A stretch of 64,000 nt of DNA from Mariniflexile sp. TRM1-10. GTDB taxonomy: Bacteria > Bacteroidota > Bacteroidia > Flavobacteriales > Flavobacteriaceae. Below the pieces are notes generated by a model. It was given only the letters and a program-made list of their open reading frames with translations, made no database searches and had not been told where the DNA came from. Below, one piece after another: positions 4,049 to 18,849 of this stretch. Each line of letters opens with the position of its first letter. Positions within the stretch are counted from its first letter, which is position 1. The position numbers and the translations under genes are program-made. Location: assembly GCF_003425985.1 (NCBI RefSeq), contig NZ_CP022985.1, forward strand, positions 4,386,001 through 4,450,000, in the 5' to 3' direction.

Positions 4049-5293
4049 ATGAAAACAAAAGTTTCTATTCTCTTTTACGCAAAGAGAGCAAAAACCAATG
4101 CTAACGGATTAGTTCCAATCTACACAAGAATTACAATTGATGGTAAACGCATTGAATTAAGCACCAATCGATTTGTAGAAATCTCAAAATGGTCCACAGA
4201 AGCAAGTAAAATGAAAGGCACTTCAGAAGAAGCTCGTTCAATAAATAACCATCTTGATTTACTTAAAAATCAAATTAGAGATGCACAAATGGAATTAATC
4301 CATAGAAAAGTATCAATAACTACAGAAAGTCTTAAAAGCAAACTATTAGGAATTGACGAGCGTGCAAGAATGCTTGTACCCATCTTCCAAGACCACAATA
4401 ATAAAATAAAAGAGCTTGTTGGCAAAGAATATGCTCCAGGAACATTAGAACGATATACAACTTCATTGAAACATACTATTGAGTTTATGCAATGGAAATA
4501 CAATGTTTCCGATATCGACATCACTAAAATAGACCACGCCTTTATTACCGATTACGAGTTCTGGTTACGAAGTGTTAGAAACTGTGCCAACAACACAGCT
4601 GTTAAATACATCAAGAATTTCAGTAAAATCATTAAAATTTGTTTGGCTAATGACTGGCTTGATAAAAATCCTTTTGCAAACTACAAATCAAAAGTTAAAG
4701 AAGTAGAACGAGTTTATCTTACTGAAGCTGAAATCCAATCTATCATTGAAAAAGATTTCAAAACAGAAAGACTTTCACTAGTTCGCGATATCTTCCTTTT
4801 TAGCTGTTTTACTGGTTTAGCATACATTGATGTCAAAAACTTAACAAAGTCGCATATAAGCTATGGAATAGATGGTGAGAAATGGATATTCACTCATAGA
4901 CAAAAAACCGAGAGCGCTTCTAAAATTCCAATACTCCCTGTAACACAAATGATAATCGATAAATACGAAAATTATCCACAGTGTATTAATGAAGATAAAC
5001 TGCTACCTATTCTATCAAACCAAAAAATGAATGCCTATTTAAAAGAAATTGCAGGAGTTTGTGAAATTGAAAAAGAACTAACTTTTCACATTGCAAGACA
5101 TACATTTGCAACAACGGTAACGCTTACAAATGGTGTTCCTATTGAATCCGTAAGTAAAATGTTAGGTCATAAAAACTTGCGAACTACTCAGCATTATGCA
5201 AAAGTTTTGGATAGAAAAGTAAGTGAGGATATGCAAATTTTGAAAGATAAATTTACTATGAATTCAAAAAATCAAAAAACGCAGGTTTCCTAA
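4049..5293 (+). CDS. Tyrosine site-specific integrase of the island
   Basis: Would catalyse integration and excision at tRNA-Ser. Order: N-terminal arm-binding domain (1-90), SAM-like core-binding domain (about 115-215), catalytic domain (220-400). Catalytic residues seen are Lys286 (RQKTE), His347 and Arg350 (HIARHTF), His374 (LGHKN) and Tyr383 (QHYAKV). The first conserved Arg is replaced by Ala258 in TGLAYIDV, as is common in Bacteroidota integrases of the CTnDOT type. Lies directly inside attL, reading inward. It is not an integron IntI: the IntI-specific insert is not apparent. Confidence 0.93.
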   Translation: MKTKVSILFYAKRAKTNANGLVPIYTRITIDGKRIELSTNRFVEISKWSTEASKMKGTSEEARSINNHLDLLKNQIRDAQMELIHRKVSITTESLKSKLLGIDERARMLVPIFQDHNNKIKELVGKEYAPGTLERYTTSLKHTIEFMQWKYNVSDIDITKIDHAFITDYEFWLRSVRNCANNTAVKYIKNFSKIIKICLANDWLDKNPFANYKSKVKEVERVYLTEAEIQSIIEKDFKTERLSLVRDIFLFSCFTGLAYIDVKNLTKSHISYGIDGEKWIFTHRQKTESASKIPILPVTQMIIDKYENYPQCINEDKLLPILSNQKMNAYLKEIAGVCEIEKELTFHIARHTFATTVTLTNGVPIESVSKMLGHKNLRTTQHYAKVLDRKVSEDMQILKDKFTMNSKNQKTQVS

Positions 5294-6258: not shown

Positions 6259-7152
6259 TTATTTTGCAGGTTTTTTGTCAAGGAATTTTTCAATCATTGG
6301 AACTACAAGGTCGCTTTCTTTAAAGTCCGGTGTTATTGTTGTAATCTCTCCAATGTATTGTCCGTGTCCGCCTGGAATAATTGCTAATTCAGAATTTGCA
6401 ATTTGTCTGTGCAATTCAATAGCGTGTTCGGGTGTAATAACGTCTTTGTCTCCAATAATAATTAGTGTTGGTACTTTAATGGATTTTATTAGCTCGTCAG
6501 GAATGTCTTTGAAGTTTACCATTCTCTTTGCATCTCTGTCGTGCATTAATTGTAAACCATTCGTGTCTGCCGCAACTTTTTTGTAGCCAACCTTTAAAAG
6601 TTCAGGCATATTTTCCAATTTGGCATTTTCTATAAAGCCCCAAAACCAATCGGGAACTCCGTTTCGTTTGGCAAGTGCTGAACCTAAAATCATTTTGTCA
6701 ACTAATTCAGGGTGTCGAATAGCAATTTGTAAAGTTGTTGTACCACCGTTGCTAAAACCGAAAAAGTCTGCCTTATCAATTTTTAAGTTTTTAAGAAGTG
6801 TTGCAACATCGTCTGCGTCCTGTTCAAATGTTAGGTCTGCATTACGGTCATTTGTCCGCCCGTGAGCTTGAAGTTCAACTGCAATTACTTGTCTGTTTTT
6901 AGCAAGTAGTGGAATGATTTTTTCAAAATTTGTCTGAATTGTCGAACCACCACCGTGAATTAAAACAAGTGGTTTTCCTTGTCCGTGAATTTCATAATAC
7001 ATTTTCAGTCCATTAACTTCACTATAGCCATTTTTAAAAGTTAAACTATCGGTTGTTGTTGTCGCCATACTATTATTTGTATTTTCTGTTTTGTTGTTGC
7101 ACGAAGTCAATGTGAAAATTGTCAACGCTAAATAAATAATTGTCTGTTTCAT
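6259..7152 (-). CDS. Lipoprotein alpha/beta hydrolase
   Basis: 297 residues with a lipoprotein signal peptide (lipobox LTSC, Cys18), so probably anchored in an envelope membrane. Alpha/beta-hydrolase fold: oxyanion HGGGS at 66-70, nucleophile elbow GFSNGG (Ser134), acid in IIGDKDVITPEHA and histidine in PGGHGQYIG. The substrate is unknown; family members include esterases and peptidases. It lies within the cassette series and is transcribed towards the island's left end. Confidence 0.88.
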   Translation of the reverse strand: MKQTIIYLALTIFTLTSCNNKTENTNNSMATTTTDSLTFKNGYSEVNGLKMYYEIHGQGKPLVLIHGGGSTIQTNFEKIIPLLAKNRQVIAVELQAHGRTNDRNADLTFEQDADDVATLLKNLKIDKADFFGFSNGGTTTLQIAIRHPELVDKMILGSALAKRNGVPDWFWGFIENAKLENMPELLKVGYKKVAADTNGLQLMHDRDAKRMVNFKDIPDELIKSIKVPTLIIIGDKDVITPEHAIELHRQIANSELAIIPGGHGQYIGEITTITPDFKESDLVVPMIEKFLDKKPAK

Positions 7153-7242
7153 TTTTTGTTTGCTGACATTGTTTAATTGTGTTCTAAAATATGAGTTGCA
7201 GTTTCACTACCAATCTGTTCCGCTAATCCAATTAGAACCGCT

Positions 7243-7256
7243 GTTATGCATAGTGC
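7243..7256. other. Cassette boundary box (3' of Shedu gene)
   Basis: GTTATGCATAGTGC. The complementary GCATTATGCATAAC lies on the other side of the gene at 8657-8670 (13 of 14 positions), as expected of the two ends of an integron-type cassette. Confidence 0.55.
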
Positions 7257-7264
7257 TTATTTTG

Positions 7265-8620
7265 TTATTTCATGAGTTCGAGTCGAGTTCTAGCATGTTC
7301 GAGAAGTTCTGAATAGTTTAGTAACTTAATATTTCTAAAAGAGCTTTTTAATTCGCGATATGCTCGTAATCCATTGTCATCATAATCTTGTTTAGAAACT
7401 TTTGATTTCGTTTCGGCACTAAGTTTTGAGTAATCTTTTGAGATTGTTGCCCATGACCCAATTATAATGATTGCAGCTGGTCTAACAGCTTCTACATATA
7501 ATATTCCGCCAATTTCGTCACTAATAAATTGTCTGATTTTTTTTTCGTCAATTTTATACTCATCATCATTATCTTTATTTACAGCCGAAATATATCTTTC
7601 AGCTTGAGAGATAGCAATTGATAAATCTTTGGAAGGATAAAATTTTCCTCTATTTGAGTCGTAATCAAGTATTTTTTGATCTGGTCTTTTCAATTCTACA
7701 ACTTCAATATCTCCGAGATGTGTGATAAGAATCAAATCAAATTGTGAACGTGATAATGTTGCGTGATTTACATATTTATTTGTGTTTAAAAGCGCTGGAA
7801 CACCAAAGAGTGTATATTGTCCATACTTTGTCAATATCATTTCCATTAGTTGTTCAGGACCAATTATATCAATTTTATTAAATCCAAATAAAGTGTGTCC
7901 CAATTCCTTAGCCTTTGCAACTGTCAAATCTTTTTCTTCTATTACACTTTCTATAGTTTCAATTAACCACTTAACTTGTTTTGTTACCTGTTTCTCAATT
8001 ATAACTTGATTAGTTTCGCCACTTTCTAGATTATTTGTTAATGAAATAACATCAGCTTTTGTAATTTGATCGCTTGCTATTATTTCTTTGAGAAGAAGAG
8101 AATAATCTCTATTTAAATCAACTTTTGGTAATGTTAATTTATATTGAGCTTCCATAAACGGAGATATTCGATTATTAACTCTCACATTTCGTTCTCGTCC
8201 TTCTTCTTTATCAATTTTTACAATTACGTCATATAGTTCTTTAGTAATAAAAATTTTTGTAGTTATGAGTTTATTCTCTTTAGCTCCAAGAACTATAGAA
8301 TCAAATGGATTTCCAGTTGCATATTTAAAAAGATCTACAATTCTTTTTGCTCCTGCTGGTGGATTTATTGCATTAGAACTAAATATCGTGAGATTTTCAT
8401 GATTTAGTGGAATTATAACTTCGAAATCTTCTTCTACAATGTCGATTTTTCTAGAAGGATAATATCTCTTTTTAAAATATTTAATTTGAAGTTTTGAATA
8501 TTGAAAAAATACAGTTTTATCAATTTTTATTTTTTTATTTACTTCTATGGCATCGTTCTCAACTAATACATTTTTAAGTTTAGTTTGAAATTTTTCTAAT
8601 GGAGTTTTTTTATATGCCAT
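7265..8620 (-). CDS. sduA: Shedu anti-phage nuclease (DUF4263)
   Basis: 451 residues. The C-terminal DUF4263 nuclease domain shows FDLILITHLGDIEVVELKRPD (Asp295, Glu309, Lys311) and a downstream SQAERY helix (Gln339), the Shedu active-site layout. The N-terminal ~280 residues form the variable sensing part. Shedu is a known single-gene system whose nuclease is switched on by phage infection. The gene sits alone between complementary boundary boxes and downstream of repeat copy 1, whose promoter box points into it. Confidence 0.85.
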   Translation of the reverse strand: MAYKKTPLEKFQTKLKNVLVENDAIEVNKKIKIDKTVFFQYSKLQIKYFKKRYYPSRKIDIVEEDFEVIIPLNHENLTIFSSNAINPPAGAKRIVDLFKYATGNPFDSIVLGAKENKLITTKIFITKELYDVIVKIDKEEGRERNVRVNNRISPFMEAQYKLTLPKVDLNRDYSLLLKEIIASDQITKADVISLTNNLESGETNQVIIEKQVTKQVKWLIETIESVIEEKDLTVAKAKELGHTLFGFNKIDIIGPEQLMEMILTKYGQYTLFGVPALLNTNKYVNHATLSRSQFDLILITHLGDIEVVELKRPDQKILDYDSNRGKFYPSKDLSIAISQAERYISAVNKDNDDEYKIDEKKIRQFISDEIGGILYVEAVRPAAIIIIGSWATISKDYSKLSAETKSKVSKQDYDDNGLRAYRELKSSFRNIKLLNYSELLEHARTRLELMK

Positions 8621-8662
8621 AATATTTAATTTAGATTTTTCTGCGTAATGTTGAGAGCATTA

Positions 8663-8755
8663 TGCATAACTTGTATATAGACGAGACAAATCTTCGCATA
8701 TACACCTAAAATCGGGTAGATTGGAGAAGGTTTGTCTCGCTTTACTATTGTTATC
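8663..8755 (-). other. attC-like palindrome ahead of Shedu gene
   Basis: Arms GACGAGACAAATCTTCG and GAAGGTTTGTCTCGC are nearly complementary, with AAC at one end (TGCATAAC, 8663-8670) and GTTATC at the other (8750-8755). Size and layout match integron attC sites. Confidence 0.55.
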
Positions 8756-8762
8756 AAATATA
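8755..8762 (-). promoter_or_regulatory. Conserved TAnnTTTG box in repeat copy 1
   Basis: TATATTTG on the minus strand with an upstream TTTG in the conserved flank. Invariant in all four repeat copies. It points towards the Shedu gene. Confidence 0.5.
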
Positions 8763-8871
8763 TTTATTTTTTCTTACAAAGCATCTAAAGAACTTCATAT
8801 TTGTTGCATCTTTTTATACGAAAATAACGACCTATACATCTGTTCTACAATAAATTACTAACAGCAACCCA

Positions 8872-8894
8872 CAAAAAAAGATGCCTTAGCATCT
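8872..8894 (-). terminator. Terminator in repeat copy 1
   Basis: AGATGC/GCATCT hairpin followed by a run of seven T on the minus strand, directly behind the smORF relic. Confidence 0.7.
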
Positions 8895-9006
8895 CTATTT
8901 CTTCCTATTCTTCCAACTATCATTCCCTCATTTATACCTTATTCTTATAAACATAGTCTCGGATAAACAATCCTATTACACTAGCTACGTCTAAACCGAT
9001 TATCTA
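8895..9006 (-). pseudogene. Decayed copy of the 40-residue membrane-protein ORF
   Basis: Reads GLDVASVIGLFIRDYVYKNK in the conserved frame but has no start codon, and an early stop caused by an indel near the conserved KYKW. Compare the intact copy at 13685-13807. Confidence 0.6.
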
Positions 9007-9091
9007 GCATTAAACTGTCAGCCCCTACAAAACTTGACACGAAGCACAAAGCTTGATTTAACCACTGAACCGCCACTTTTGGGTAGGTGCT

Positions 9092-9102
9092 GTTACCAGC
9101 CG
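9092..9102. other. Cassette boundary box
   Basis: GTTACCAGCCG, the downstream mate of TAGCCAGTAAC at 10068-10078 (8 of 11 complementary positions). Confidence 0.45.
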
Positions 9103-9107
9103 TTTTT

Positions 9108-10046
9108 CTATCGTCTAATTTGCAAACCAATTCTGTCATTGTCTATATACAAGTTCTTTTCTTGTTCCTTATTCGTGTCAAAAATGAATGGTTTAATTTC
9201 ATTTGTAATACCGTCTTCCGCATAATCTCTTATTGAAATTGGTAGAATTAATCTTGGTCTATAAAACTCAAGAATTTCAAAATGCCAAAAATGTCTGAAC
9301 GGAAATTCGTCAGGGAATAATTTCTCAAAAGGTTTATACGATAACTCAACTTCATAAAATTTTTCGCCTTGAATTTCTATTTCTTTATAGTTGAAATATT
9401 TTTCGTTTAAAAATTCTGAAAGTCCACTGTAATACTGTCGAGTTAGCTTTTTTAATAATTCATTGTCATAAGGGACATTGTCATTATATGGGTCGTGATA
9501 TTTACATTGAACATTATTGTAAAGGTTATAAGAAACACAAGCAACAGAAAAATTAACTGGAATTCCGCCTGTTTGAGATTGTGCTTTGTGAGTTGTCATA
9601 TTACCGTGTCCACCAGAGTAACCCTTTGCTTCAATAGCAAACATTGAATTTTGCTTGTATGCAAGTAAGTCAGGTCGTCCAACATTCAGTGGCATATTCC
9701 TTAATCTCATTGCGGCTTCATAGTTTACATTAAAAATACTTTGGTCAATTCGTTTAGATAAATAGTCAGCGATTGCTTTACCTGCAAGATTTGAAAACTG
9801 TCCTTTTTCAGTTGGGTCGGAAAGTTGAATTGGAGGTTCCGAAAACCTATTGTTATTAAATGCTTGTCTTTGCACATAATAGCTGTAATGAAAAAACATT
9901 GAAAGTGTCCGAATAAGTTTTTGCGGTCGTGGGGCAAAACCTTGTCCAGCAATTGCTAAATGTTTTGCAAAAGCAATTCGTGTCAAGTTGTGAGTTTGAT
10001 TAGTAATTGTCCCTGCGGTGTCTTTATATTCTACTGTTAAATTCAT
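9108..10046 (-). CDS. PD-(D/E)XK nuclease-like protein of unknown function
   Basis: 312 residues, no family recognised. GRPDLLAY (Asp126), MFAIEAKGYSG (Glu139-x-Lys141) and a following glutamine-bearing stretch (AQSQTG) fit a PD-(D/E)XK nuclease core in the middle of the protein. No helicase or methylase partner is adjacent. It is a single-gene cassette: GTTACTGGCTA (rc of 10068-10078) and GTTACCAGCCG (9092-9102) bracket it. Given its neighbours (Shedu, Mrr-like, HNH), a phage-defence nuclease is the likeliest role, but this is inference. Confidence 0.65.
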   Translation of the reverse strand: MNLTVEYKDTAGTITNQTHNLTRIAFAKHLAIAGQGFAPRPQKLIRTLSMFFHYSYYVQRQAFNNNRFSEPPIQLSDPTEKGQFSNLAGKAIADYLSKRIDQSIFNVNYEAAMRLRNMPLNVGRPDLLAYKQNSMFAIEAKGYSGGHGNMTTHKAQSQTGGIPVNFSVACVSYNLYNNVQCKYHDPYNDNVPYDNELLKKLTRQYYSGLSEFLNEKYFNYKEIEIQGEKFYEVELSYKPFEKLFPDEFPFRHFWHFEILEFYRPRLILPISIRDYAEDGITNEIKPFIFDTNKEQEKNLYIDNDRIGLQIRR

Positions 10047-10071
10047 TGTTTTGCTGTCGTCTTAAAATAGC

Positions 10072-10167
10072 CAGTAACTTGTATATATGTGAGACAAACC
10101 TTCGCATATACCTCCAAATAATCTAGATTGGCGAAGGTTTGTTTCGCTTTATTATTATTATCAAATA
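10072..10167 (-). other. attC-like palindrome ahead of the 312-residue gene
   Basis: Arms GTGAGACAAACCTTCGC and GCGAAGGTTTGTTTCGC pair almost fully. Ends are GTAAC (10074-10078) and ATTATC. Confidence 0.5.
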
Positions 10168-10169
10168 TA
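10162..10169 (-). promoter_or_regulatory. Conserved TAnnTTTG box in repeat copy 2
   Basis: TATATTTG on the minus strand, same flanks as the other copies, directed at the 312-residue nuclease-like gene. Confidence 0.5.
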
Positions 10170-10279
10170 TTTATTTTTTCTTACAAATCATCAAACAAGC
10201 CTTCTATTAATTACAACTTTTCATACTAAAACAACGATCTATACAGCTGTTCTACAACAAATTCCTAACAGCAACCCAC

Positions 10280-10307
10280 AAATAGAGATGCCAAAGCATC
10301 TCTATTT
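10280..10307 (-). terminator. Terminator-like hairpin in repeat copy 2
   Basis: AAATAGAGATGC and GCATCTCTATTT form a longer perfect stem than in the other copies; compensating changes on both arms keep the pairing. Confidence 0.6.
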
Positions 10308-10352
10308 CTTCCTATTCTTCCAACTATCATTCCGCCATTTATATTTATTCTT
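10302..10352 (-). pseudogene. 3' remnant of the 40-residue membrane-protein ORF
   Basis: Encodes only the basic tail KWRNDSWKNRKK followed by the stop. The rest was deleted when the unit fused to the upstream gene. Confidence 0.55.
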
Positions 10353-10360
10353 AATTTTTG

Positions 10361-11089
10361 TTAATTAAAGATTTCTAAAAACTCCTGACATTTATTTTTT
10401 ATTTCTTCTATTTTCATTTTGTCTTTGTCGCTTTCTTTTAATACCCAATATTTGTTTTCATTCCATTCAAATGCTCTATTGTCGCCTGAACCATTTTGCG
10501 TAATAAAACCCCAAAACCATAAGTCATCCCAAACTTCAATTTGTTGTCCTTTATATTTTGTTTCTAATGTTTTGTTTATTTTGTTAAAATCCCATTTTAT
10601 CGAATTATCTAACTTTTTGAAAATTGCAATTATTACGGCATCAACGGGAAGATAAAAACTATCATTTTCATCAATTAATTTAGGAACATCATTCCAAATT
10701 TTTAAATTCTCTGAATACTTTCCGTTATGTAAGTGGAATATACTTTTAGAAATTAATGCAGACGTTTTTGGTCCCCATCCTTTTTGATTTAGCATTCCTT
10801 TATAAACGCTTTCAAAATTACTTTTTCCATTTGGATTAATTTTCTCGATGAATTCTTGAAAAGACTTCAAAGAATTATCTTCAGTAATTATTGATCTATA
10901 AAATTCAGAAAGTTTGTCAATTTTGGGTTGGCTTTGAGTGTTTGCAATGTGGTATAATAAAGAAATTATTTTTTCTTTTTCATTCTTATACGGTAAAATA
11001 ATTGAGCGATAATATTTTTCTTGTAAAGCTTTGTTATATTTTCTATTATTAGAAATGAATTTAAAAAGTTTTTCTATTTTATCTGTCAT
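10361..11089 (-). CDS. HhH-GPD DNA-glycosylase-like protein
   Basis: 242 residues. QKGWGPKTSALISKSI (about 103-118) resembles the helix-hairpin-helix of HhH-GPD base-excision enzymes and LPVDAVIIAIF (about 147-157) resembles the PVDTHV segment that holds their catalytic Asp. The C-terminal part DLWFWGFITQNGSGDNR is unlike standard glycosylases. It may excise damaged or phage-modified bases, but this is inferred from two short motifs. The upstream boundary box TTACAAC (11138-11144) has no visible mate because the 3' side is fused to repeat copy 2. Confidence 0.55.
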   Translation of the reverse strand: MTDKIEKLFKFISNNRKYNKALQEKYYRSIILPYKNEKEKIISLLYHIANTQSQPKIDKLSEFYRSIITEDNSLKSFQEFIEKINPNGKSNFESVYKGMLNQKGWGPKTSALISKSIFHLHNGKYSENLKIWNDVPKLIDENDSFYLPVDAVIIAIFKKLDNSIKWDFNKINKTLETKYKGQQIEVWDDLWFWGFITQNGSGDNRAFEWNENKYWVLKESDKDKMKIEEIKNKCQEFLEIFN

Positions 11090-11137
11090 TCAACTATTTT
11101 CTAAAGGTTTTATTTAGTTCGGTTTTTCTTAAATGTT

Positions 11138-11273
11138 TTACAACGTTCTGGTACTACAGCGTGTTTCGGATTAAATTAAGCCCATTATTCGGATTTGCCA
11201 AATCTTCCCAAATACAAAACCATTTTTCCATTAAGCCTATTGCCCAAATCTGTTGTAGTACCTGTTAGCGGTA
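11138..11273 (-). other. attC-like site between two cassettes
   Basis: The clearest integron-type site. Arms ACGTTCTGGTACTACAG (11143-11159) and CTGTTGTAGTACCTGTTAG pair with small bulges; the ends are TTACAAC (11138-11144) and GTTAGCG (11264-11270). Total ~133 bp. On the minus strand it follows the 115-residue gene and precedes the HhH-GPD-like gene. Confidence 0.6.
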
Positions 11274-11278
11274 GTTGC

Positions 11279-11626
11279 TTAATCTGATCCTTCACAAATT
11301 ATTTTGCCTGTTTCAATTAAAATTTTTGCAAAACTATGTTTTCCGTAAACTATTTTTAGATGCTCTTTTTCGATTCGAATCTCTCTTATTTCAGATTTTC
11401 CAACCGATGGTTTTCCACAAGTTTTCATAACAGTTGCATTCCATTTTGCTTTTTTATTTTGAAAGGCAAGTATTGTTTGAGTTTTTTTTTCAAAATAGAA
11501 AGTTATATGTCCACTATATTCTAAACCTTCCACTTTGGTAAAACCTTTTGGAATAGTTTCTTTGCTTTGTCCATAAGATATCTGAAATGTCAGAAATACA
11601 AAAAATGTATATTTTAGAATTTCCAT
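11279..11626 (-). CDS. Small secreted protein, unknown
   Basis: 115 residues with a Sec signal peptide (MEILKYTFFVFLTFQISYGQ) and a beta-rich mature part containing one cysteine in MKTCGKPSVG. I do not recognise the family. It is the second ORF of a two-gene cassette: GTTAGCGGTA boxes at 11264-11273 and (complement) 12192-12201 enclose this gene and the membrane protein gene before it, 16 bases apart. Confidence 0.6.
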   Translation of the reverse strand: MEILKYTFFVFLTFQISYGQSKETIPKGFTKVEGLEYSGHITFYFEKKTQTILAFQNKKAKWNATVMKTCGKPSVGKSEIREIRIEKEHLKIVYGKHSFAKILIETGKIICEGSD

Positions 11627-11642
11627 ATGTCTGAAGTTATTA

Positions 11643-12158
11643 TTAATCTTTAAATCCTTTTAGCAAATTTGATTCCCAAACTTTTATTTCTTTTTTACTG
11701 TGATTTTCCCCAATAGCTGTTATATCGTGTAAAAACTCTTTTTTTCTTCCATTAACAGAAACGAACTCAAACATTATGAATACTTTTTTATTGCACTCGT
11801 TTAATTTTCCATAGACGTTTGAATTAATGCATATATTAATAGGTGCTATTTCACCAACTTTTATAACTTTTGGGTAATCAGTGGATTCAATATCATGCCC
11901 ACCATATGATTCTGAAGCCATTCCTTTATCTGAATTACCAGTTAACAAATGAATTGAATTTAAAAGTAATTCTTGATTGCCGGGATTACTGATTACATAA
12001 CAATATTTTCTATCAAATTGTCCGTCATTATTTTGAATCCAGACTAACCTGAAATTAGCTTTTGTTTGTTTCCAAAAAAACTGATAATATGAAGTTATTA
12101 AAGAAACTAGAATAGCAATTCCAGAAAAAGTCAATGTTATAATTTCGTTTTGAGACAT
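11643..12158 (-). CDS. Membrane-anchored protein of unknown function
   Basis: 171 residues starting MSQNEIITLTFSGIAILVSL: one N-terminal membrane helix, then YYQFFWKQTKANFRL and a soluble domain. The frame is open upstream to 12236, but that part lies in the repeated attC-like palindrome, so the ATG at 12158 is the real start. No family recognised. First gene of a two-gene cassette whose boundary boxes (12192-12201 and 11264-11273) are perfectly complementary over 10 bases. Confidence 0.65.
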   Translation of the reverse strand: MSQNEIITLTFSGIAILVSLITSYYQFFWKQTKANFRLVWIQNNDGQFDRKYCYVISNPGNQELLLNSIHLLTGNSDKGMASESYGGHDIESTDYPKVIKVGEIAPINICINSNVYGKLNECNKKVFIMFEFVSVNGRKKEFLHDITAIGENHSKKEIKVWESNLLKGFKD

Positions 12159-12194
12159 TTTAATTCTTTTGATGATAGTGTTCGGGATAATTAC

Positions 12195-12288
12195 CGCTAA
12201 CTTGCATATAGACGAAACAAACCTTCGCATATACATCCAAATATATCTAGATTGGAGAAGGTTTGTCTCGCTTTACTATTGTTATCAA
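12195..12288 (-). other. attC-like palindrome ahead of the two-gene cassette
   Basis: Arms GACGAAACAAACCTTCGC and GAGAAGGTTTGTCTCGC pair with two G-T/C-T offsets. Ends CGCTAAC (12195-12201) and GTTATC (12281-12286). Confidence 0.55.
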
Positions 12289-12293
12289 ATATA
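12286..12293 (-). promoter_or_regulatory. Conserved TAnnTTTG box in repeat copy 3
   Basis: TATATTTG on the minus strand, pointing into the two-gene cassette. Confidence 0.5.
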
Positions 12294-12401
12294 TTTATTT
12301 TTTCTTACAAATCATCAAACAAGCCTTCTATTAATTACATCTTCTCATACTAATATAACGACCTATACATCTGTTCTACAACAAATTCCTAACAGCAAAC
12401 C

Positions 12402-12425
12402 ACAAAAAAAGATGCCTTAGCATCT
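12402..12425 (-). terminator. Terminator in repeat copy 3
   Basis: AGATGC/GCATCT hairpin plus seven T on the minus strand, behind the smORF relic. Confidence 0.7.
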
Positions 12426-12546
12426 CTATTTCTTCCTATTCTTCCAACTATCATTCCGCCATTTATATTTTTTCTTATAAACATAGTCTCGTATAAACAA
12501 TCCAATTACACTAGCTACGACTAAACCTGTTTCTCATACATTCCAT
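12426..12546 (-). pseudogene. Frameshifted copy of the 40-residue membrane-protein ORF
   Basis: The ATGGAATG start is kept, but two single-base losses near codons 3-6 put the start out of frame with the conserved GLVVASVIGLFIRDYVYKKK body, giving a stop after 11 codons. Confidence 0.65.
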
Positions 12547-12716
12547 CCCTCAAAAAGTATGATAGTATCATACAGTAAAGTAGTATCGTTTTGCAGATAC
12601 TCGAAGGTGGCTATGTAGAAGCACTTCACTGTCAACCAAGCAGAAACTTTGATAGAAGCACAAAGCTTGATTTAACCACTGAAGCGCCACTTTTGGGTAG
12701 GTGGTTGTGTGAGGTT

Positions 12717-13418
12717 TTATTCCTTCTTCTTTTGTTTAATCCCCTCTAAAAACTCTTTTTTTGCAGCAATTACAATTGAGCATAAGTTCTTATGATAAAC
12801 AAATACTCCGATAATACAAAGTGCATTTTCTATATCATCACTATCGACAACATATTCTGTTTCAGTAGGGTTCATCGTTTTTATATTATACATAAAAATG
12901 TCTTCGTGACCTGAAACTAAAAAATTATTGCCCTCGATTACATAATCATAAAATAATTTACCAATTCCCATAAGTTTTTCATCTTCTTCATCACCTTCTG
13001 CAATTATTTCGACTTCAAAATCTTTTGGCAATGGTCTTTTATATTTGTCATAAAATACACCTTTGAAATTTTTTATATGCAATTGTTTAAATTCATTATA
13101 ACTAAAATCAACTGCTAAAACTTTACCTTCTGAAAAAAACAATCTATCTGCCCAATTTTTTCGACGCATAATTGATTTTACAGACTTTCTTGTCAATTCA
13201 ATTTGATTATCATCATTATTATTCATTATTCCAATTGCATCTCTAATTTCCTGATCAATTTGAGAATATTTATTATTACACTCGAAACAAGCTGGCACAA
13301 CTAATCTGTTTACTTTATATTCATTACCATAACCTACAAATAAATTTTGTGCAGGTATGTGTTCTCGTGTTATTTTTTCTTCAGGGAATTCATTTCCACA
13401 ATTATAGCATATTTGCAT
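12717..13418 (-). CDS. HNH endonuclease-like protein
   Basis: 233 residues. The N-terminus has CYNCG (zinc pair 1), TREHIPAQNLF (histidine of the beta-beta-alpha-metal fold) and PACFECNNKYS (zinc pair 2 and Asn), an HNH arrangement. The remaining ~170 residues are unrecognised and contain acidic and beta-rich stretches. A defence nuclease is plausible from context. The cassette boxes CTCACACAAC (13452-13461) and GTTGTGTGAG (12704-12713) that flank it are perfectly complementary. Confidence 0.7.
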   Translation of the reverse strand: MQICYNCGNEFPEEKITREHIPAQNLFVGYGNEYKVNRLVVPACFECNNKYSQIDQEIRDAIGIMNNNDDNQIELTRKSVKSIMRRKNWADRLFFSEGKVLAVDFSYNEFKQLHIKNFKGVFYDKYKRPLPKDFEVEIIAEGDEEDEKLMGIGKLFYDYVIEGNNFLVSGHEDIFMYNIKTMNPTETEYVVDSDDIENALCIIGVFVYHKNLCSIVIAAKKEFLEGIKQKKKE

Positions 13419-13454
13419 ATTTCATTTTTTTTTGATTCGTTTTTCAAAAATCTC

Positions 13455-13547
13455 ACACAACTAGTATATAGGTCTCATAAAAGCAGACCTATCACTCCAA
13501 TTGCAGATGGATAGATCCTATAGTAGTCAAACTTTATTGCTTATCAA
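13455..13547 (-). other. attC-like palindrome ahead of the HNH gene
   Basis: Ends CACACAAC and GCTTATC; outer and inner stems as described for repeat copy 4. The sequence differs from copies 1-3 while the layout and size are the same. Confidence 0.45.
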
Positions 13548-13552
13548 ATATA
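13545..13552 (-). promoter_or_regulatory. Conserved TAnnTTTG box in repeat copy 4
   Basis: TATATTTG on the minus strand with an upstream TTTG about 22 bases before it, pointing at the HNH gene. Confidence 0.5.
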
Positions 13553-13661
13553 TTTATTTTTTCTTACAAATCATTAAACAAGTCTTCTATTAATTGCAAC
13601 TTTTCATACTACTACAACGACCTATACAGCTATTCTACAACAAATTCCTAACAGCAACCCA

Positions 13662-13684
13662 CAAAAAAAGATGCCTTAGCATCT
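13662..13684 (-). terminator. Terminator in repeat copy 4
   Basis: AGATGC/GCATCT hairpin followed by seven T on the minus strand, immediately behind the intact smORF. Confidence 0.7.
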
Positions 13685-13807
13685 CTATTTCTTCCTATTC
13701 TTCCAACTATCATTTCGCCATTTATATTTATTCTTATAAACATAGTCTCGGATAAATAATCCAATTATACTACATACAACTAAACCTATTATCTCATACC
13801 ATTCCAT
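13685..13807 (-). CDS. 40-residue single-pass membrane protein, repeated four times in this array
   Basis: Reads MEWYEIIGLVVCSIIGLFIR, then DYVYKNKYKWRNDSWKNRKK. One hydrophobic helix (about residues 6-19) followed by a strongly basic, aromatic tail, so probably an inner-membrane protein with a cytosolic tail. A TATCTTTG box and GAGAG lie just before the ATG; a terminator follows at once. Three further copies at 12426, 10302 and 8895 are broken. No known family recognised. It may be a small toxin-like or membrane-stress peptide, or simply the original cargo of a cassette whose promoter is what is now kept. Confidence 0.65.
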   Translation of the reverse strand: MEWYEIIGLVVCSIIGLFIRDYVYKNKYKWRNDSWKNRKK

Positions 13808-14031
13808 CTCTCAAAGATAAAACAGTAAGAGTACTACTATTTAATACTAAGCACCAATACTCCCGAATTGACAACTTGTAATCCCAAATAGACAAGTATA
13901 AAAAAGAGGACATCAAATCCTCTTAGAATCTTCATCATAATTTTATGATAACATCATAAGACCGAATTAGAACTATTCCTTTCTGCCGCGATTGAGTTGT
14001 TGGTGCTTCTCCCACAACGAATCACTTAGCT

Positions 14032-14045
14032 GTTAGCAGTAGTAA
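14032..14045. other. Cassette boundary box (3' side of the HEPN-motif gene)
   Basis: GTTAGCAGTAGTAA; the other side of the gene, 14690-14703, reads ATTAGCAATAATAA on the minus strand (11 of 14 identical). This is the outermost pair seen, at the promoter-proximal end of the array. Confidence 0.4.
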
Positions 14046-14046
14046 C

Positions 14047-14670
14047 CTATCCTATCAACGCAATCATATCATTTTCATAGTTTGCATAATCTTTCCATTC
14101 TAATAAGTCAACAATTTTTTTAGCTCTATTCAAAAAATAATCAGTTGTCAAATCATATTCATCTCCAAAATCAGTTGTCAAATTAATAAAGCAATTTTTT
14201 ACAGGATTTCCTGGATTTCCCTCCTCACAATGTAGAGCTTGGTTTCTAGATTGCCAAATTATGTTTTTTAAAGTCTCGGAACCTAAATTTCGTCCAATTG
14301 GGCAATTAATTAAATTGGTATGTTCTGTGGAAATTCCTTGCTTAGCAATTTGCAGTAAACTCATAGCTAATGAGTTTATGGAATTTTTTTTAGCGTCAAT
14401 AGATTTTTCTATTTCATCTAATTCCAATTTTCTGCTTTTTAAGTTATTTTCTTCACTGAATTTAGCCATTTTGATGAATTTAGATTGTACTTGCAAATCA
14501 TCATAGTCATCACTTTTTTCAGCACTAGAAAAATCCCATTGTAAGTGATCGAAATGTCTTTTTAAATAATCAAATTTTTCTGTTAATTCGGTCAGATGTG
14601 ATTCTTCTTGATAAATTATATTAATTAAACTTTGTGAAGCAAATTCTGTGTCTTTGATATATTGATTCAT
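14047..14670 (-). CDS. Coiled-coil protein with a HEPN-like RNx3H motif
   Basis: 207 residues. A long helical N-terminal part with coiled-coil character (about 20-110) is followed by IIWQSRNQALHCEEGNP, which holds Arg142-x4-His147 with Asn after the Arg, the signature of HEPN ribonucleases. HEPN proteins act as RNA-cleaving toxins in many defence systems, but a single motif is not proof. First gene of the minus-strand cassette series. Confidence 0.55.
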   Translation of the reverse strand: MNQYIKDTEFASQSLINIIYQEESHLTELTEKFDYLKRHFDHLQWDFSSAEKSDDYDDLQVQSKFIKMAKFSEENNLKSRKLELDEIEKSIDAKKNSINSLAMSLLQIAKQGISTEHTNLINCPIGRNLGSETLKNIIWQSRNQALHCEEGNPGNPVKNCFINLTTDFGDEYDLTTDYFLNRAKKIVDLLEWKDYANYENDMIALIG

Positions 14671-14892
14671 TTTAAGTGAAAGTTTGTGATTATTATTGCT
14701 AATAATCAGCCGAAGTGTTAAATGGTTTTCTTAGTCATAATATAAAAATCCTATTGCACGTTTTGTGACTCCTAAGGATATACTGATGTTTTTTTATTTA
14801 AGGTTTTAGTTTTTGTATCATTCAATTTATAATTCGTAAGGATGTTAAATTAGTATGGTGTTTATCATATTTAGGCAATATTTAATTTAAAA

Positions 14893-17835
14893 TTAATCCT
14901 CATTTTCTTTAAATAGTTCCCTCATATCGTTTTCAAGAAGTTTATAAACCCAATTTCTAATAACGCAGTACTCATCAACTTTTTCTGTGTTTATTCGATC
15001 AACAGTTTTTATAGGATAACGATGGTTGTCACGAATACGCAAAATAAAGTCTAACGAAAAGCTTCTCAAGCTTTTTAGCCCAATACTTTTAAAAGCTTCG
15101 TCAGATTCATTACTATCCTTAAAATTAATTTCAAATTTACCATTAGGGGACGGACGATATCCAAAACTTCCCCATTTGAGAATATCGTCATCTTTCATAT
15201 AAAAGAAATATTCATGAGGAATTGTTGTGTAAAAATCGAATTCGTCTTTATAAGTGGGGAAACAATACTCGACAAAGTCTTTGTAAGCCAGTTCTAAATG
15301 CCTAAAAAACTCTGAAACATACTGTTTTGCCTGAACTTCACTAAACTGAGCTATCCTAACATAATTCCAATTGTCTTTTCTGTTTTGCTCATAGAACTCT
15401 TTAGCTCGATCGATTGATACATCTGGTAGCGGTAAATAATGTTCAAGAATTTGATTATAGCCTTTTTCAAGCAATACTTGTGTAACTTTAAATAATTCTT
15501 CAAAAGGAACAACATCCCCACTTCCTGTAATTTTTGGGATATCAACATTCTCTAGCAATGCTTTTTCAATTGTTTCCTCCATTACTGCACGATTCAAATT
15601 TTTGTATTTGTAAAATTCGGTCAGTCGAAATCTATTTATCCGATGCTGTAGGTCTTTCAAATCTATTGGATAAATCTCTTTGAATCTTGGCATATAAAAC
15701 TCTTCAATTTTATTCTCAAAATATAACCTTTTATAATAGCAGTAAAGAATTACTGCAACTTCTTCCATCAATAGAACGTCAGAATTGTAAGCGGTAAGTC
15801 TACCTTTTTCAAGTATTTTCTTCAGTTGTTCGAATATATTCTTCTTAACAATTCTGTTTTGGTCTTTGACAAGTAATGATGTATTACTACCATGTACAGT
15901 TTTGATTCCTTTTTCCCACCAAAAATCGTAGCCACTGTTTGAAAAATCGTCTAAATTTGAGTAAGCAATCTTTTGAGTTGAATTCGGAGCCATACGAAAG
16001 AGTGCATAACCATCATTTTTGATTAAATCATTTGGTAACATTATTCCAATATCGCCATGTGTGTTAGGGTCAAACTTATCTTTAAAATTTTTAAAATTTT
16101 CATCCAGATAGGAATTATGGCTTATCACGTATTCCAATGATTTATCTTGTTTAAATTTTACTAAGGCTCTTAGATGAGAAGAGCTTGCGTTTTCGATATA
16201 AAAATCCAAAGCACTTTTACCAATATGGTTTTGATAGAAATCGAATAGTGTATTATAGAATTCGTCATCAGATAGTTTATCCAATTTATACGAATAAAAA
16301 CAAATTATATAATCACGAATTTTTGAATAGTAGAACGAAACGTTATATGAATCTTCCTTATTAGACTTGATAAGAATGTTTCTGCTAAATAAATCTTCAG
16401 GAATATTGTCATCAAGTGAGAAATCTAATTTTTCAAGAAGATGGTTCACATCTAAACCTTCGTCCTTATATGCTGCCCACGAATCGTATTTATAGTTAAG
16501 AATTATTTTTCCAATAGCTGAAAGTGTTCTCAAGCCAGAGATGTAACCAATATTTGTTTCATTTAGTGATCGGTTTAAATATTTGTTTATTAGGTCTTTA
16601 TCACTAATTTTTTCAGGTATATTTTTATTGCAATATACCTCACTAAAAATTTTCAAAAAAAATCCGTTTTTTAATTCCTTAAGCAAAGAATTTGAGATAA
16701 CTCCTTTAAAGCCAAATGCTTTTTGATATAGTGGAATTATCTCTGTTAGTTCTTTAGCTGAAAAATCCTTTAGTTGAAAACCTGGACTATTATCCAAATC
16801 ACTTATTTTATTATGGTATTTATTTAACTCTTCATAAAGATAAGTTGGCTTATTTTTTATTTTTAAAATATCGTTCCAAATATTTGATTTGCAGCTAATA
16901 ATAATTTTTATTTTATCAAGATTTTTAGCAATCAAAGCAATTTCACTTAGTTCCACTGCAATATCAGGATTTGTACTTTCATCTATTGCATCAATAAATA
17001 CGAGAACATTTTTGTTAGCAAATCTTCCAATTTCATCCAGTTTTTTAAGGACTACATCAGATTCACTTCTATTGGAAAAAGTAATATTTAAATCTTGTGA
17101 AATGCATTCCAAAGGGGATTTTATAATTGCAGCATTATAGAATAAAACAAACTTATCTTCTAAGTTTCGAAGAGCTAATGAACAAATAGTATTCGTTTTG
17201 CCAACCCCAGCATTACCCACTAACCCAAATATTGATTCAGGAGAATATAAAAAGTTTCCAAATGTAATTTGTAACTCCTCGCGCTGAACGTAAAGTTCTT
17301 TGACAAATTTAGAATAGGGGCTATTTATATCACCAATGATTGAACCCATTCTATCATAGACTTGGAATTCGCAAAAGGTTTTTAAATTTTCGGTTGATAA
17401 CGAAATAAAATTCTTTAGGGCTTCATATCTAATCCTAAGATCTTCATCTGTAGATAAATTATAACCATTTGTCAAAAAAACAGACTGACCAGAGATGTTT
17501 CCAGTTAATTCTTTTCTAGTAATCGAATCAAAAATCCTAGTTGTTTTTCCATTGCTAACTATTGTAAATGGCGCTATATCATCTAGTAATAATCTAGCAT
17601 ATGAAATTCCTTGATCTATATCATTCTGGGTAATTTCAATTGAATCATTTTTTAGTTCAATTACAAATAGATTTTTATCATTTTTTTTACAAAGTATATC
17701 TGCTCTTCCTGTAACATGCTTTTTCTTTCCAAGTCGTATGCTAAAAGCATGCTCTAAAAATATCTCTGAAACATCAAATCCTAAATCCTGTAAGTATGGT
17801 AATAATAGCTTACCTCTAATATCTTCTTCATTCAT
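14893..17835 (-). CDS. PD-(D/E)XK nuclease-STAND NTPase (Avs-like)
   Basis: 980 residues in three parts. Residues 1-120 form an HsdR-N-like nuclease: TGRADILC (Asp46) and LFVIELKND (Glu60-x-Lys62). Residues ~170-480 form a P-loop NTPase: GLVGNAGVGKTNT (Walker A, 204-216), VLVFIDAIDES (Walker B, 277-287) and helical STAND-like regions. The C-terminal ~450 residues are helical and unrecognised, in the place where Avs proteins hold their phage-protein sensor. Avs proteins bind a phage protein, oligomerise and activate their N-terminal effector. Assignment to an Avs class is inference. A small XRE regulator gene lies upstream on the same strand. Confidence 0.7.
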   Translation of the reverse strand: MNEEDIRGKLLLPYLQDLGFDVSEIFLEHAFSIRLGKKKHVTGRADILCKKNDKNLFVIELKNDSIEITQNDIDQGISYARLLLDDIAPFTIVSNGKTTRIFDSITRKELTGNISGQSVFLTNGYNLSTDEDLRIRYEALKNFISLSTENLKTFCEFQVYDRMGSIIGDINSPYSKFVKELYVQREELQITFGNFLYSPESIFGLVGNAGVGKTNTICSLALRNLEDKFVLFYNAAIIKSPLECISQDLNITFSNRSESDVVLKKLDEIGRFANKNVLVFIDAIDESTNPDIAVELSEIALIAKNLDKIKIIISCKSNIWNDILKIKNKPTYLYEELNKYHNKISDLDNSPGFQLKDFSAKELTEIIPLYQKAFGFKGVISNSLLKELKNGFFLKIFSEVYCNKNIPEKISDKDLINKYLNRSLNETNIGYISGLRTLSAIGKIILNYKYDSWAAYKDEGLDVNHLLEKLDFSLDDNIPEDLFSRNILIKSNKEDSYNVSFYYSKIRDYIICFYSYKLDKLSDDEFYNTLFDFYQNHIGKSALDFYIENASSSHLRALVKFKQDKSLEYVISHNSYLDENFKNFKDKFDPNTHGDIGIMLPNDLIKNDGYALFRMAPNSTQKIAYSNLDDFSNSGYDFWWEKGIKTVHGSNTSLLVKDQNRIVKKNIFEQLKKILEKGRLTAYNSDVLLMEEVAVILYCYYKRLYFENKIEEFYMPRFKEIYPIDLKDLQHRINRFRLTEFYKYKNLNRAVMEETIEKALLENVDIPKITGSGDVVPFEELFKVTQVLLEKGYNQILEHYLPLPDVSIDRAKEFYEQNRKDNWNYVRIAQFSEVQAKQYVSEFFRHLELAYKDFVEYCFPTYKDEFDFYTTIPHEYFFYMKDDDILKWGSFGYRPSPNGKFEINFKDSNESDEAFKSIGLKSLRSFSLDFILRIRDNHRYPIKTVDRINTEKVDEYCVIRNWVYKLLENDMRELFKENED

Positions 17836-17935
17836 AAATACTGTTTAACAAGAAAAACTTCTTTTATAGTTACTGGATTATTAACTATATCAAAGATATT
17901 TAATTTTGAATAAAAGCAAGTTTTAAAATTGGGAT

Positions 17936-17960
17936 AAAAAAAGATGCCTAAGCATCTTTC
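17936..17960 (-). terminator. Terminator behind the XRE gene
   Basis: AGATGC/GCATCT hairpin with seven T on the minus strand. The hairpin core is the same as in the four cassette repeats although the flanks are unrelated. Confidence 0.6.
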
Positions 17961-17967
17961 ATTTTCT

Positions 17968-18204
17968 TTATAATGGTTTATCTGGCCAAAAATCCTTTGG
18001 AGAACAGCCTAATATTTTAGCAATATCATTTAAATGTTTGATATTGTACTTAGCTTTTTTTGAAGGTGCTTCTATGTCTGAGATAAAGGTTGTACTCTTC
18101 CCCAAAGCTAAAGACAAAGAAACTTGAGTAAATCCATTCTTTTCTCTTAGTTCTTTGATTCTTTTTATAATAAATCTTTCTATTTCATCTAATGACTCAT
18201 GCAT
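17968..18204 (-). CDS. Small XRE-family helix-turn-helix regulator
   Basis: 78 residues. RIKELREKNGFTQVSLSLALGKSTTFISDIE is a Cro/C1-type HTH, followed by HLNDIAKILGCSPKDFWPDKPL. It resembles small controller proteins that time expression of restriction or STAND genes. It is on the same strand as the Avs-like gene, 132 bases away, but a strong terminator between them means it is not a simple operon. Confidence 0.8.
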   Translation of the reverse strand: MHESLDEIERFIIKRIKELREKNGFTQVSLSLALGKSTTFISDIEAPSKKAKYNIKHLNDIAKILGCSPKDFWPDKPL

Positions 18205-18849
18205 AACACAAAATGAAACTAAAAAAGAATAAAAAACTAAGGACTATAGTCCTGATTGTAAAATAATTTATTATATTAGCACCGAAATAATTAAATTTGC
18301 GATTCTTCAAAAATATTGAAGCATTCGCTTTGAATCTCGTTATCAAAAACTGGTAATTTTTAGCACGCGAGATGATAAGTATGATGCTCACGTCTCTCTC
18401 TTTGGGCGTGGGCTCTCTTATTCGTGTGCGGGTATACCAGTGCCTTGGTAGCGTTTAAGTTGAGTTCCACGCTTTTTTTATGCATTCCTGCGAAAGCGGG
18501 AACCTCATCCAAAAAATTCAGGAACTCCTTAAAAGGATAGTCATCATTGGACAATACCTCAGCTTCTTAGCACTGCTTTTTTTTCAGAACGTTTCGCATA
18601 AGGATCTTATCATTTTATTTTTTAGTTAGTCGGAAATATGTCGCTCAACCTTGGCTGCAACAAGCACGAGCGGCATATTTTCCTTAACCTTTAAAACCAA
18701 TGCCTATGCAATAAAAAAAACATTGTTCGACTCTCGACTTTTCAACTTTCGACTTTCGACTCAAATAAAAAGCCCTCTAGCCTGAGATCAAACATTCTAG
18801 AGAGCAAGTACTAACAAAACCAAAGTTTCATTAAAACCAATTCAAAAGT
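18205..18849. other. Gene-free, repeat-rich stretch
   Basis: No convincing gene. Contains a widespread flavobacterial intergenic repeat (18361-18480) whose minus-strand translation gives the familiar TNKRAHAQRE string, a CATTCCTGCGAAAGCGGGAA repeat (18482-18501), and a hairpin GGAAATATGTCGCTC (18632-18646)/GAGCGGCATATTTTCC (18668-18683). The 3' end is the presumed promoter region of the SusC gene. Confidence 0.5.

Follow-up and report, generated by a model that had tools for sequence, protein, structure and literature searches.

Four same-strand copies of a repeat unit lie between positions 8667 and 13815 of a 64,000-nucleotide stretch of the Mariniflexile sp. TRM1-10 genome (GCF_003425985.1, contig NZ_CP022985.1, positions 4,386,001 to 4,450,000; the whole stretch is hereafter the window), all on the minus strand and each directly upstream of a minus-strand gene. 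From comparison with relatives, we consider it likely that each unit reproduces in miniature, and without the integrase, the front end of an integron-like platform of Bacteroidota. An intact platform comprises a tyrosine-recombinase gene, a predicted promoter (Pc) overlapping the last codons and stop of that gene, a hairpin-forming attachment (att) site, and gene cassettes in the same direction. In a window unit, the recombinase gene would be gone save for its last codons, with a small open reading frame (ORF) and a terminator in front, followed by Pc, the att site and a captured cassette. This reading builds on the anatomy of the repeat, the order of integrase, Pc, att site and cassettes in relatives, the complementarity of cassette starts and ends, and the hairpin potential of the sites. 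More broadly, the analysis points to an integron-like system whose recombinase is not an IntI and which appears to be common in Flavobacterium and its relatives.

Anatomy of the repeat units

Along the direction of transcription, each unit runs from the small ORF through a hairpin terminator, a leader of ~90 bases, the promoter core and a palindrome to the boundary G/TT (the slash marks the joining point) and the gene. The copies start at 8667 (unit 1), 10074 (unit 2), 12198 (unit 3) and 13457 (unit 4). A first-pass annotation of the window had described this repeat, which is real, and had singled out its promoter part as the conserved one. Indeed, a 28-base core (ATCAAATATATTTATTTTTTCTTACAAA on the plus strand; positions in Table 1) is identical in all four units, and at up to 3 mismatches it has four matches in the window versus none in each of 100 shuffles. 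Mean pairwise identity among the four units is 1.00 for the promoter core, 0.92 for the terminator, 0.85 for the leader, 0.68 for the palindrome and 0.65 for the small ORF.

The palindrome, which the annotation called attC-like, agrees with a recombination-type site at the cassette edge. It is not conserved throughout, as had been claimed: its shape is kept more than its sequence, and copy 13457 is 50-55% identical to the other three there. Conservation of the terminator holds in three of the four units, the T-run being gone from copy 10074, and the proposed insulator role is weakened by the same copy; a promoter ahead of every cassette stands as a prediction from the sequence. A search with the unit across the whole Mariniflexile genome (one contig, 4.86 Mb; the genus is sampled by 6 genomes) gave 10 matches, 4 in the window and 6 at C1:622-630 kb. 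There, a second array, built of these units and different cassettes (C1:622000-630300; locus L011 10220-18260), adjoins a gene that by eye resembles a serine recombinase (L011 from 18754). An Rfam search of window 7000-18600 returned nothing above the gathering score, the sole sub-threshold match being a miRNA (E 0.15).

The integrase platform in relatives

In many Flavobacterium genomes, the block lies directly 3' of a tyrosine recombinase gene (347 aa) and upstream of gene cassettes, and its first bases are the last codons of that gene (..DDL-stop). Specifically, of 28 listed recombinase ORFs, with duplicate loci counted, 23 end in SPFDDL, most being 347 aa long with the stop inside the promoter block. 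In line with this arrangement, the leaders of units 2 and 3 read LIEGLFDDL-stop and that of unit 4 reads LIEDLFNDL-stop, unit 1 resembles the integrase end weakly, and one unit of the second array reads IKGLFDDL-stop with further stops upstream (likenesses by eye). Because the window leaders still read as a recombinase end, and because the recombinase stop sits inside the block, we regard the block as integrase 3' end, promoter and att site together. The first-pass annotation missed this platform because it is absent from the window.

The motif TAnnTTTG, which we take to be the Bacteroidota -7 element, occurs 7-12 bases past the integrase stop at 17 of 18 Flavobacterium integrase sites (mononucleotide shuffles: mean 0.32, max 3), at a near-fixed distance although the surrounding bases vary. 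From this conserved box a Pc in front of the array is predicted, and it would be active. The exact motif is absent at the two Chryseobacterium plasmid sites described below. All 13 records retrieved by an exact search with a 27-base part of the core are Flavobacterium by title.

Across 199 Flavobacterium genomes, an integrase is found at E<=1e-90 in 86, and a model of core plus palindrome (R1) matches in 126 (counts are lower bounds; only 18 candidates per genome were scored, under stricter filters). R1 captures sequence more than structure: RNAalifold, run on a mixture of arms, gave no more than 6 pairs. Block and integrase occur together in 67 genomes, the block alone in 59, the integrase alone in 19 and neither in 54 (Fisher p 2e-4); they thus co-occur above expectation. 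An integrase gene next to a recombination site and a cassette array is found in relatives and not in the window's genome.

Four Flavobacterium species carry, at one chromosomal site beside a gene that is presumably kbl, the block and an 89.6-93.4% identical flank followed by four mutually unrelated first genes. Additionally, one gene that follows a block in the second array shares 95.6% identity across 410 residues with a gene that follows the same block in a Flavobacterium metagenome-assembled genome; both comparisons suggest movement. Two Chryseobacterium plasmids carry the same integrase (68-69% identity over the whole length), each followed by a hairpin-like stretch and AAACAAG/TT, with cassette start/end matches, as defined below, of 12/12 and 9/12. 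Recombinases ~48-51% identical over about three quarters of this integrase were seen on Acinetobacter, Klebsiella and Aeromonas plasmids. A scan of the phylum found the recombinase in 117 of 395 at E<=1e-50, which is not taken as a count of integrons because 14 recombinases outside a 41-row clade of the recombinase tree have no locus reaching 11/12.

Cassette boundaries and hairpin sites

A free integron cassette is a circle, and its start hence pairs with its own end. In the window, the start is complementary to the own end at 11 of 12 bases in three of the four cassettes and imperfectly in the fourth. Each recombinase locus was represented, in controls as in data, by the best of all GTTs lying 30-150 bases past the stop. 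Against 1.4 on average and never more than 7 in 5000 permutations that exchanged downstream DNA between loci, matches of at least 11/12 are found at 21 of 57 recombinase loci. By group, these are 9 of 21 Flavobacterium loci, 4 of 5 in the window's own genus and 8 of 31 in other Bacteroidota. Starts behind promoter blocks reach at least 10/12 in 9 of 19, one of these (L011c) being no better than controls, and in a separate test 15 of 20 first cassettes reached that level. Chains run to at least 12 consecutive cassettes at locus L150, to 4 at L240 in the own genus and to 4 at L223; at L154 the chain has 6, some of them not adjacent, a seventh having been excluded.

Pairing by position was read from 50 cassettes, namely 46 kept of 58 chain entries at 10/12 or better plus the four of the window; the 12 others, one of 7 in L154 included, were dropped by eye as intragenic-looking, AT-rich or inside an attC arm, and the set is without 19 loci having single-cassette chains. 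Positions 1-5 pair in all 50, positions 1-9 in 49-50, position 10 in 41 and positions 12-13 in 49. Position 11 is paired in none, an A in the start standing opposite a C in the end in 48, and A is also found at position 11 in all 19 starts behind promoter blocks. This A/C mismatch may be a mark of polarity like the extrahelical bases of attC.

The mean hairpin z is -2.99 at 33 sites versus -0.13 and 0.04 in neighbouring control stretches, and the platform att site is itself hairpin-prone. The G/TT boundary, the hairpin and the own-end complementarity by which an integron attC is recognised are thus all present. The hairpin of unit 4 is no stronger than its shuffles. One attC family is common to window 9006-9116 and 12620-12730 (CACCTACCCAAAAGTGGCG..TTCAGTGG) and also ends a Flavobacterium palustre cassette (L029).

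We propose that the terminator would stop incoming transcripts, with Pc then starting transcription anew toward the following cassette, and that the folded att site would mark the G/TT point at which cassettes are joined, the recombinase presumably moving them through folded single strands.

The recombinase

Three of the integrases score 220-228 bits against NF040815 ('site-specific tyrosine recombinase/integron integrase', cut-off 220). The same three give 200-202 bits in two stretches against TIGR02249, the integron integrase model, below its cut-off of 265. The IntI-specific insertion around patch III is missing from all 56 aligned recombinases, which have 26-29 residues versus 60 in IntI1; where IntI4 has 61 residues, the recombinase has 19. 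Part of PMC9668308 treats the additional domain of IntI as a requirement for an integron integrase. Because this insertion is missing, the recombinase is not an IntI by the defining feature, although it sits in the same place; judged by its sequence, it is Xer-like.

The Flavobacterium-type integrase has an N-terminal extension of ~70 residues, in which no Pfam family was found above cut-off. Residues 1-65 (A4) form an unnamed N-terminal domain with the motif G.RWS.....WHLPDT. A structure model is of middling quality (predicted local distance difference test, pLDDT, 74.6; predicted template modelling score, pTM, 0.45), and its fold matches to XerA and IntI4 are taken as supportive. In the recombinase tree, the 41-row clade is weakly supported (81/75), some loci inside it fail the own-end test, and IntI1 is on a long branch; given the weak clade support and this long branch, an origin independent of IntI is not established.

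The small ORF

As the first-pass annotation had noted, the 40-codon ORF is intact only once in the window and is start-broken, truncated or stop-containing in the other three copies. Homologues are found in 32 of the 199 Flavobacterium genomes, and 23 intact copies, the window's own included, gave a median ratio of nonsynonymous to synonymous substitution rates (dN/dS) of 0.31 over 182 pairs of usable divergence. By this measure, the family is under purifying selection outside this genome. The earlier claim that the ORF is not being kept therefore applies to this genome only, and half of the pattern that the annotation had named as refuting its own proposal is what we found.

A search around 30 loci of the small ORF gave an R1 match at 7 (6 on the same strand and <=~250 bases downstream, 2 of these being weak or beside a partial ORF), so the small ORF occurs mostly without the promoter block. 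It is absent directly upstream in 11 of the 13 core-matching Flavobacterium records (by eye; a biased sample, as the search was for the core). In one array of genome G486, several intact small ORFs lie between cassettes, one of them followed by a different promoter region (by eye). In genome G347, the small ORF lies directly upstream of an intact integrase gene, and the units may have arisen by loss of the integrase gene from a platform with a small ORF upstream. A further homologue, at L061 (G127:C11:1093048-1093170), stands directly 3' of a helix-turn-helix-like gene (by eye) in an operon-like arrangement.

Integrases and neighbouring genes

No intact cassette integrase was found in the Mariniflexile genome, where the best match is an Xer-like protein (1.9e-33) and the best TIGR02249 stretch reaches 69 bits. 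An att-like site and a gene that by eye resembles a sigma factor come after a 52-residue integrase 3' remnant (C1:3328470-3328625), and integrases at E<=1e-78 are present in 4 of the 5 other genomes of the genus. The arrays of the window and of L011 are attC clusters with no integron integrase nearby, as in the class termed CALIN (cluster of attC sites lacking an integron integrase).

Near the left end of the array, window 4049-5293 encodes an arm-binding tyrosine recombinase (Arm-DNA-bind_5, SAM_5), which may belong to an island carrying the array; being of the arm-binding type, it was set aside as the driver of the cassettes. The gene at 9108-10046 encodes a 312-aa protein with no Pfam match. 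Window 14893-17835 encodes a protein of 980 aa that has the N terminus of a restriction enzyme and a stretch weakly resembling Avs2.

Table 1. Features of the repeat units and their cassettes (window positions)
Feature	Position	Strand	Remark
Cassette behind unit 1, with Shedu-like gene 7265-8620 (SduA_C)	7243..8670	-	start GTTATGCATAAT, end ACTATGCATAAC; own-end match 11/12
Cassette behind unit 2, with gene 9108-10046	9092..10078	-	start GTTACTGGCTAT, end GGCTGGTAAC; imperfect match; missed by blind test
Two-gene cassette behind unit 3 (11643-12158, directly downstream of the unit, and 11279-11626)	11264..12201	-	start GTTAGCGGTAAT, end ACTACCGCTAAC; match 11/12
Cassette behind unit 4, HNH_5 protein 12717-13418 (Pfam)	12704..13461	-	start GTTGTGTGAGAT, end CTCACACAAC; match 11/12
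attC-like long hairpin of the two-gene cassette	11142..11275	-	ending ..CAGAACG/TTGTAAAAC
Hairpin att site, unit 1	8668..8754	-	z -3.87
Hairpin att site, unit 2	10076..10161	-	z -4.76
Hairpin att site, unit 3	12199..12285	-	z -4.45
att site, unit 4	13459..13544	-	cassette boundary G/TT, G at 13461; weak hairpin, z -0.84
Predicted Pc core, unit 1	8753..8780	-	28-base core match
Predicted Pc core, unit 2	10160..10187	-	28-base core match
Predicted Pc core, unit 3	12284..12311	-	28-base core match
Predicted Pc core, unit 4: integrase terminal codons/stop and -7 box TATATTTG	13543..13570	-	core match, box survey, leader reading
Remnant of integrase C-terminal codons (LIEGLFDDL-stop), unit 3	12305..12334	-	likeness by eye
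Terminator, unit 1	8873..8894	-	
Terminator stem, unit 2	10286..10301	-	T-run lost
Terminator, unit 3	12404..12425	-	
Terminator-like hairpin and T-run, unit 4	13663..13684	-	
Decayed small ORF, unit 1	8895..9006	-	holds stops
Truncated small ORF, unit 2	10302..10355	-	residues 24-40 and stop
Small ORF copy, unit 3	12426..12530	-	frame broken near start
Intact 40-aa small ORF, unit 4	13685..13807	-	MEWYEIIGLVV...RNDSWKNRKK; probable single-span membrane protein (span by eye)

Alternative explanations

Several observations weigh against deriving the units from an integrase platform. Most blocks are without an adjoining integrase, with up to 17 blocks per genome versus usually one integrase. An origin by integrase deletion has one example, G347: of the 14 integrase loci shown, the small ORF is upstream in that one and not there in 13, although 5 of the 14 had <250 bases to inspect. 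The unit's own 5' boundary breaks the cassette start/end rule. Own-end matches stay below 10/12 at 6 of 21 Flavobacterium, 1 of 5 own-genus and 17 of 31 other loci, while 14-21% of control pairs attain 10/12, for which reason only matches of 11/12 or more count as strong. The first cassette of plasmid platform L243 matches at 12/12 with position 11 paired, a counterexample unless it arose by chance, and the sister plasmid platform L244 reaches 9/12. The hairpin z is above -1.5 at 6 of 17 folded promoter-block sites, unit 4 of the window included. Both recombination and transcription are deduced here from sequence, and without an intact cassette integrase the arrays of this genome may be relics, or frozen if no enzyme works on them in trans.

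The first-pass annotation held that the unit is itself a cassette, a mobile promoter selected for promoter and insulator and spread by recombination. That four copies with an invariant core each stand ahead of a cassette gene speaks for it, and gene-less cassettes bearing promoters are known in Vibrio and reported in Treponema, according to parts of PMC11014356. We nevertheless consider this explanation unlikely. The 3' boundary G/TT is present, but the 5' end has neither the A at position 11 nor the own-end complementarity of gene cassettes (by eye); the promoter belongs to the platform, with integrase codons attached and readable in three of the four units (by eye); and the small ORF is maintained elsewhere.

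Still less probable, in our view, is that the window holds an ordinary CALIN derived from a classical IntI integron. The cassette ends do follow integron logic, in this genome the integron integrase model matches at up to 69 bits, and intI genes are reported in the Bacteroidetes/Chlorobi group in parts of PMC2426708 and PMC8618304. However, no match above the IntI model cut-off was found in 299 genomes of the family (the positive control gave none either) or in the 199 Flavobacterium genomes, and a different recombinase sits exactly at the platform. We regard as very improbable that the units are Xer/dif-type modules or a repeat resembling a miniature inverted-repeat transposable element (MITE), unrelated to cassette capture. 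In favour are the Xer-like recombinase and the short, repeated, palindromic form of the units; against it, every cassette has an end complementarity of its own and the hairpins are long, features that to our knowledge dif modules lack.

Relation to known systems and significance

The platform resembles classical integrons in having an integrase gene, an adjoining att site and promoter, a unidirectional array, cassette starts that pair with their own ends, the G/TT boundary and long hairpins. Unlike in classical integrons, the integrase here lacks the IntI insertion, carries the N-terminal extension in its Flavobacterium type and reads toward the cassettes. The platform att site here is hairpin-prone, whereas a classical attI is unstructured, and the A/C at position 11 is near-constantly unpaired. 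Treponema chromosomal integrons differ in that their integrases are described as intI, whereas the recombinase here is Xer-like. The gene-less promoter cassettes of Vibrio superintegrons are alike in that promoters in sense orientation lie within the arrays, in some cases together with a decayed gene (parts of PMC11014356), whereas the promoter here would be platform-derived, with integrase codons attached. Gene cassettes of the class 1 Delta-attI type likewise have a piece of attI serving inside an array (parts of PMC12901181); those are resistance cassettes with IntI1, whereas here att, Pc and the integrase 3' end stand behind a small ORF. In Riemerella anatipestifer, a gene flanked by 27 bp on its 5' side and by 140 attC-like bp on its 3' side enters the chromosome independently of homology, and the relevant part of PMC13148043 leaves the mechanism open; unlike here, no recombinase is identified there, and the two systems may be linked.

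In the open-access literature, the scope of our search (subscription papers lie outside it), we recognised no description of this system. Novelty is tempered by intI genes in the Bacteroidetes/Chlorobi group (parts of PMC2426708), by integrons counted in Bacteroidota (parts of PMC8618304 and PMC9668308), by Bacteroidetes integrase-only elements and one complete integron, in Salinibacter (parts of PMC9024848), and by the NCBI product name, which is already 'site-specific tyrosine recombinase/integron integrase'.

With the balance about even, we suggest that these platforms may represent a second kind of integron, widespread in Bacteroidota, with an Xer-lineage recombinase bearing a new N-terminal domain in place of the IntI insertion, hairpin sites on both platform and cassettes, and a near-constant A/C mismatch at position 11 that would set polarity. 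It would shed promoter-att mini-platforms that give captured, often defence, cassettes a promoter of their own. If so, cassette capture would not need the IntI domain, the one that integron finders search for, and a whole population of integrons in Bacteroidota would at best have entered catalogues as orphan attC clusters. The system would also provide a mechanism, open to testing, for the gene uptake without homology seen in Flavobacteriales, it would be a natural point of comparison in asking how an Xer enzyme learns to cut folded single strands, and the mini-platforms would explain the continued expression of genes deep in an array.

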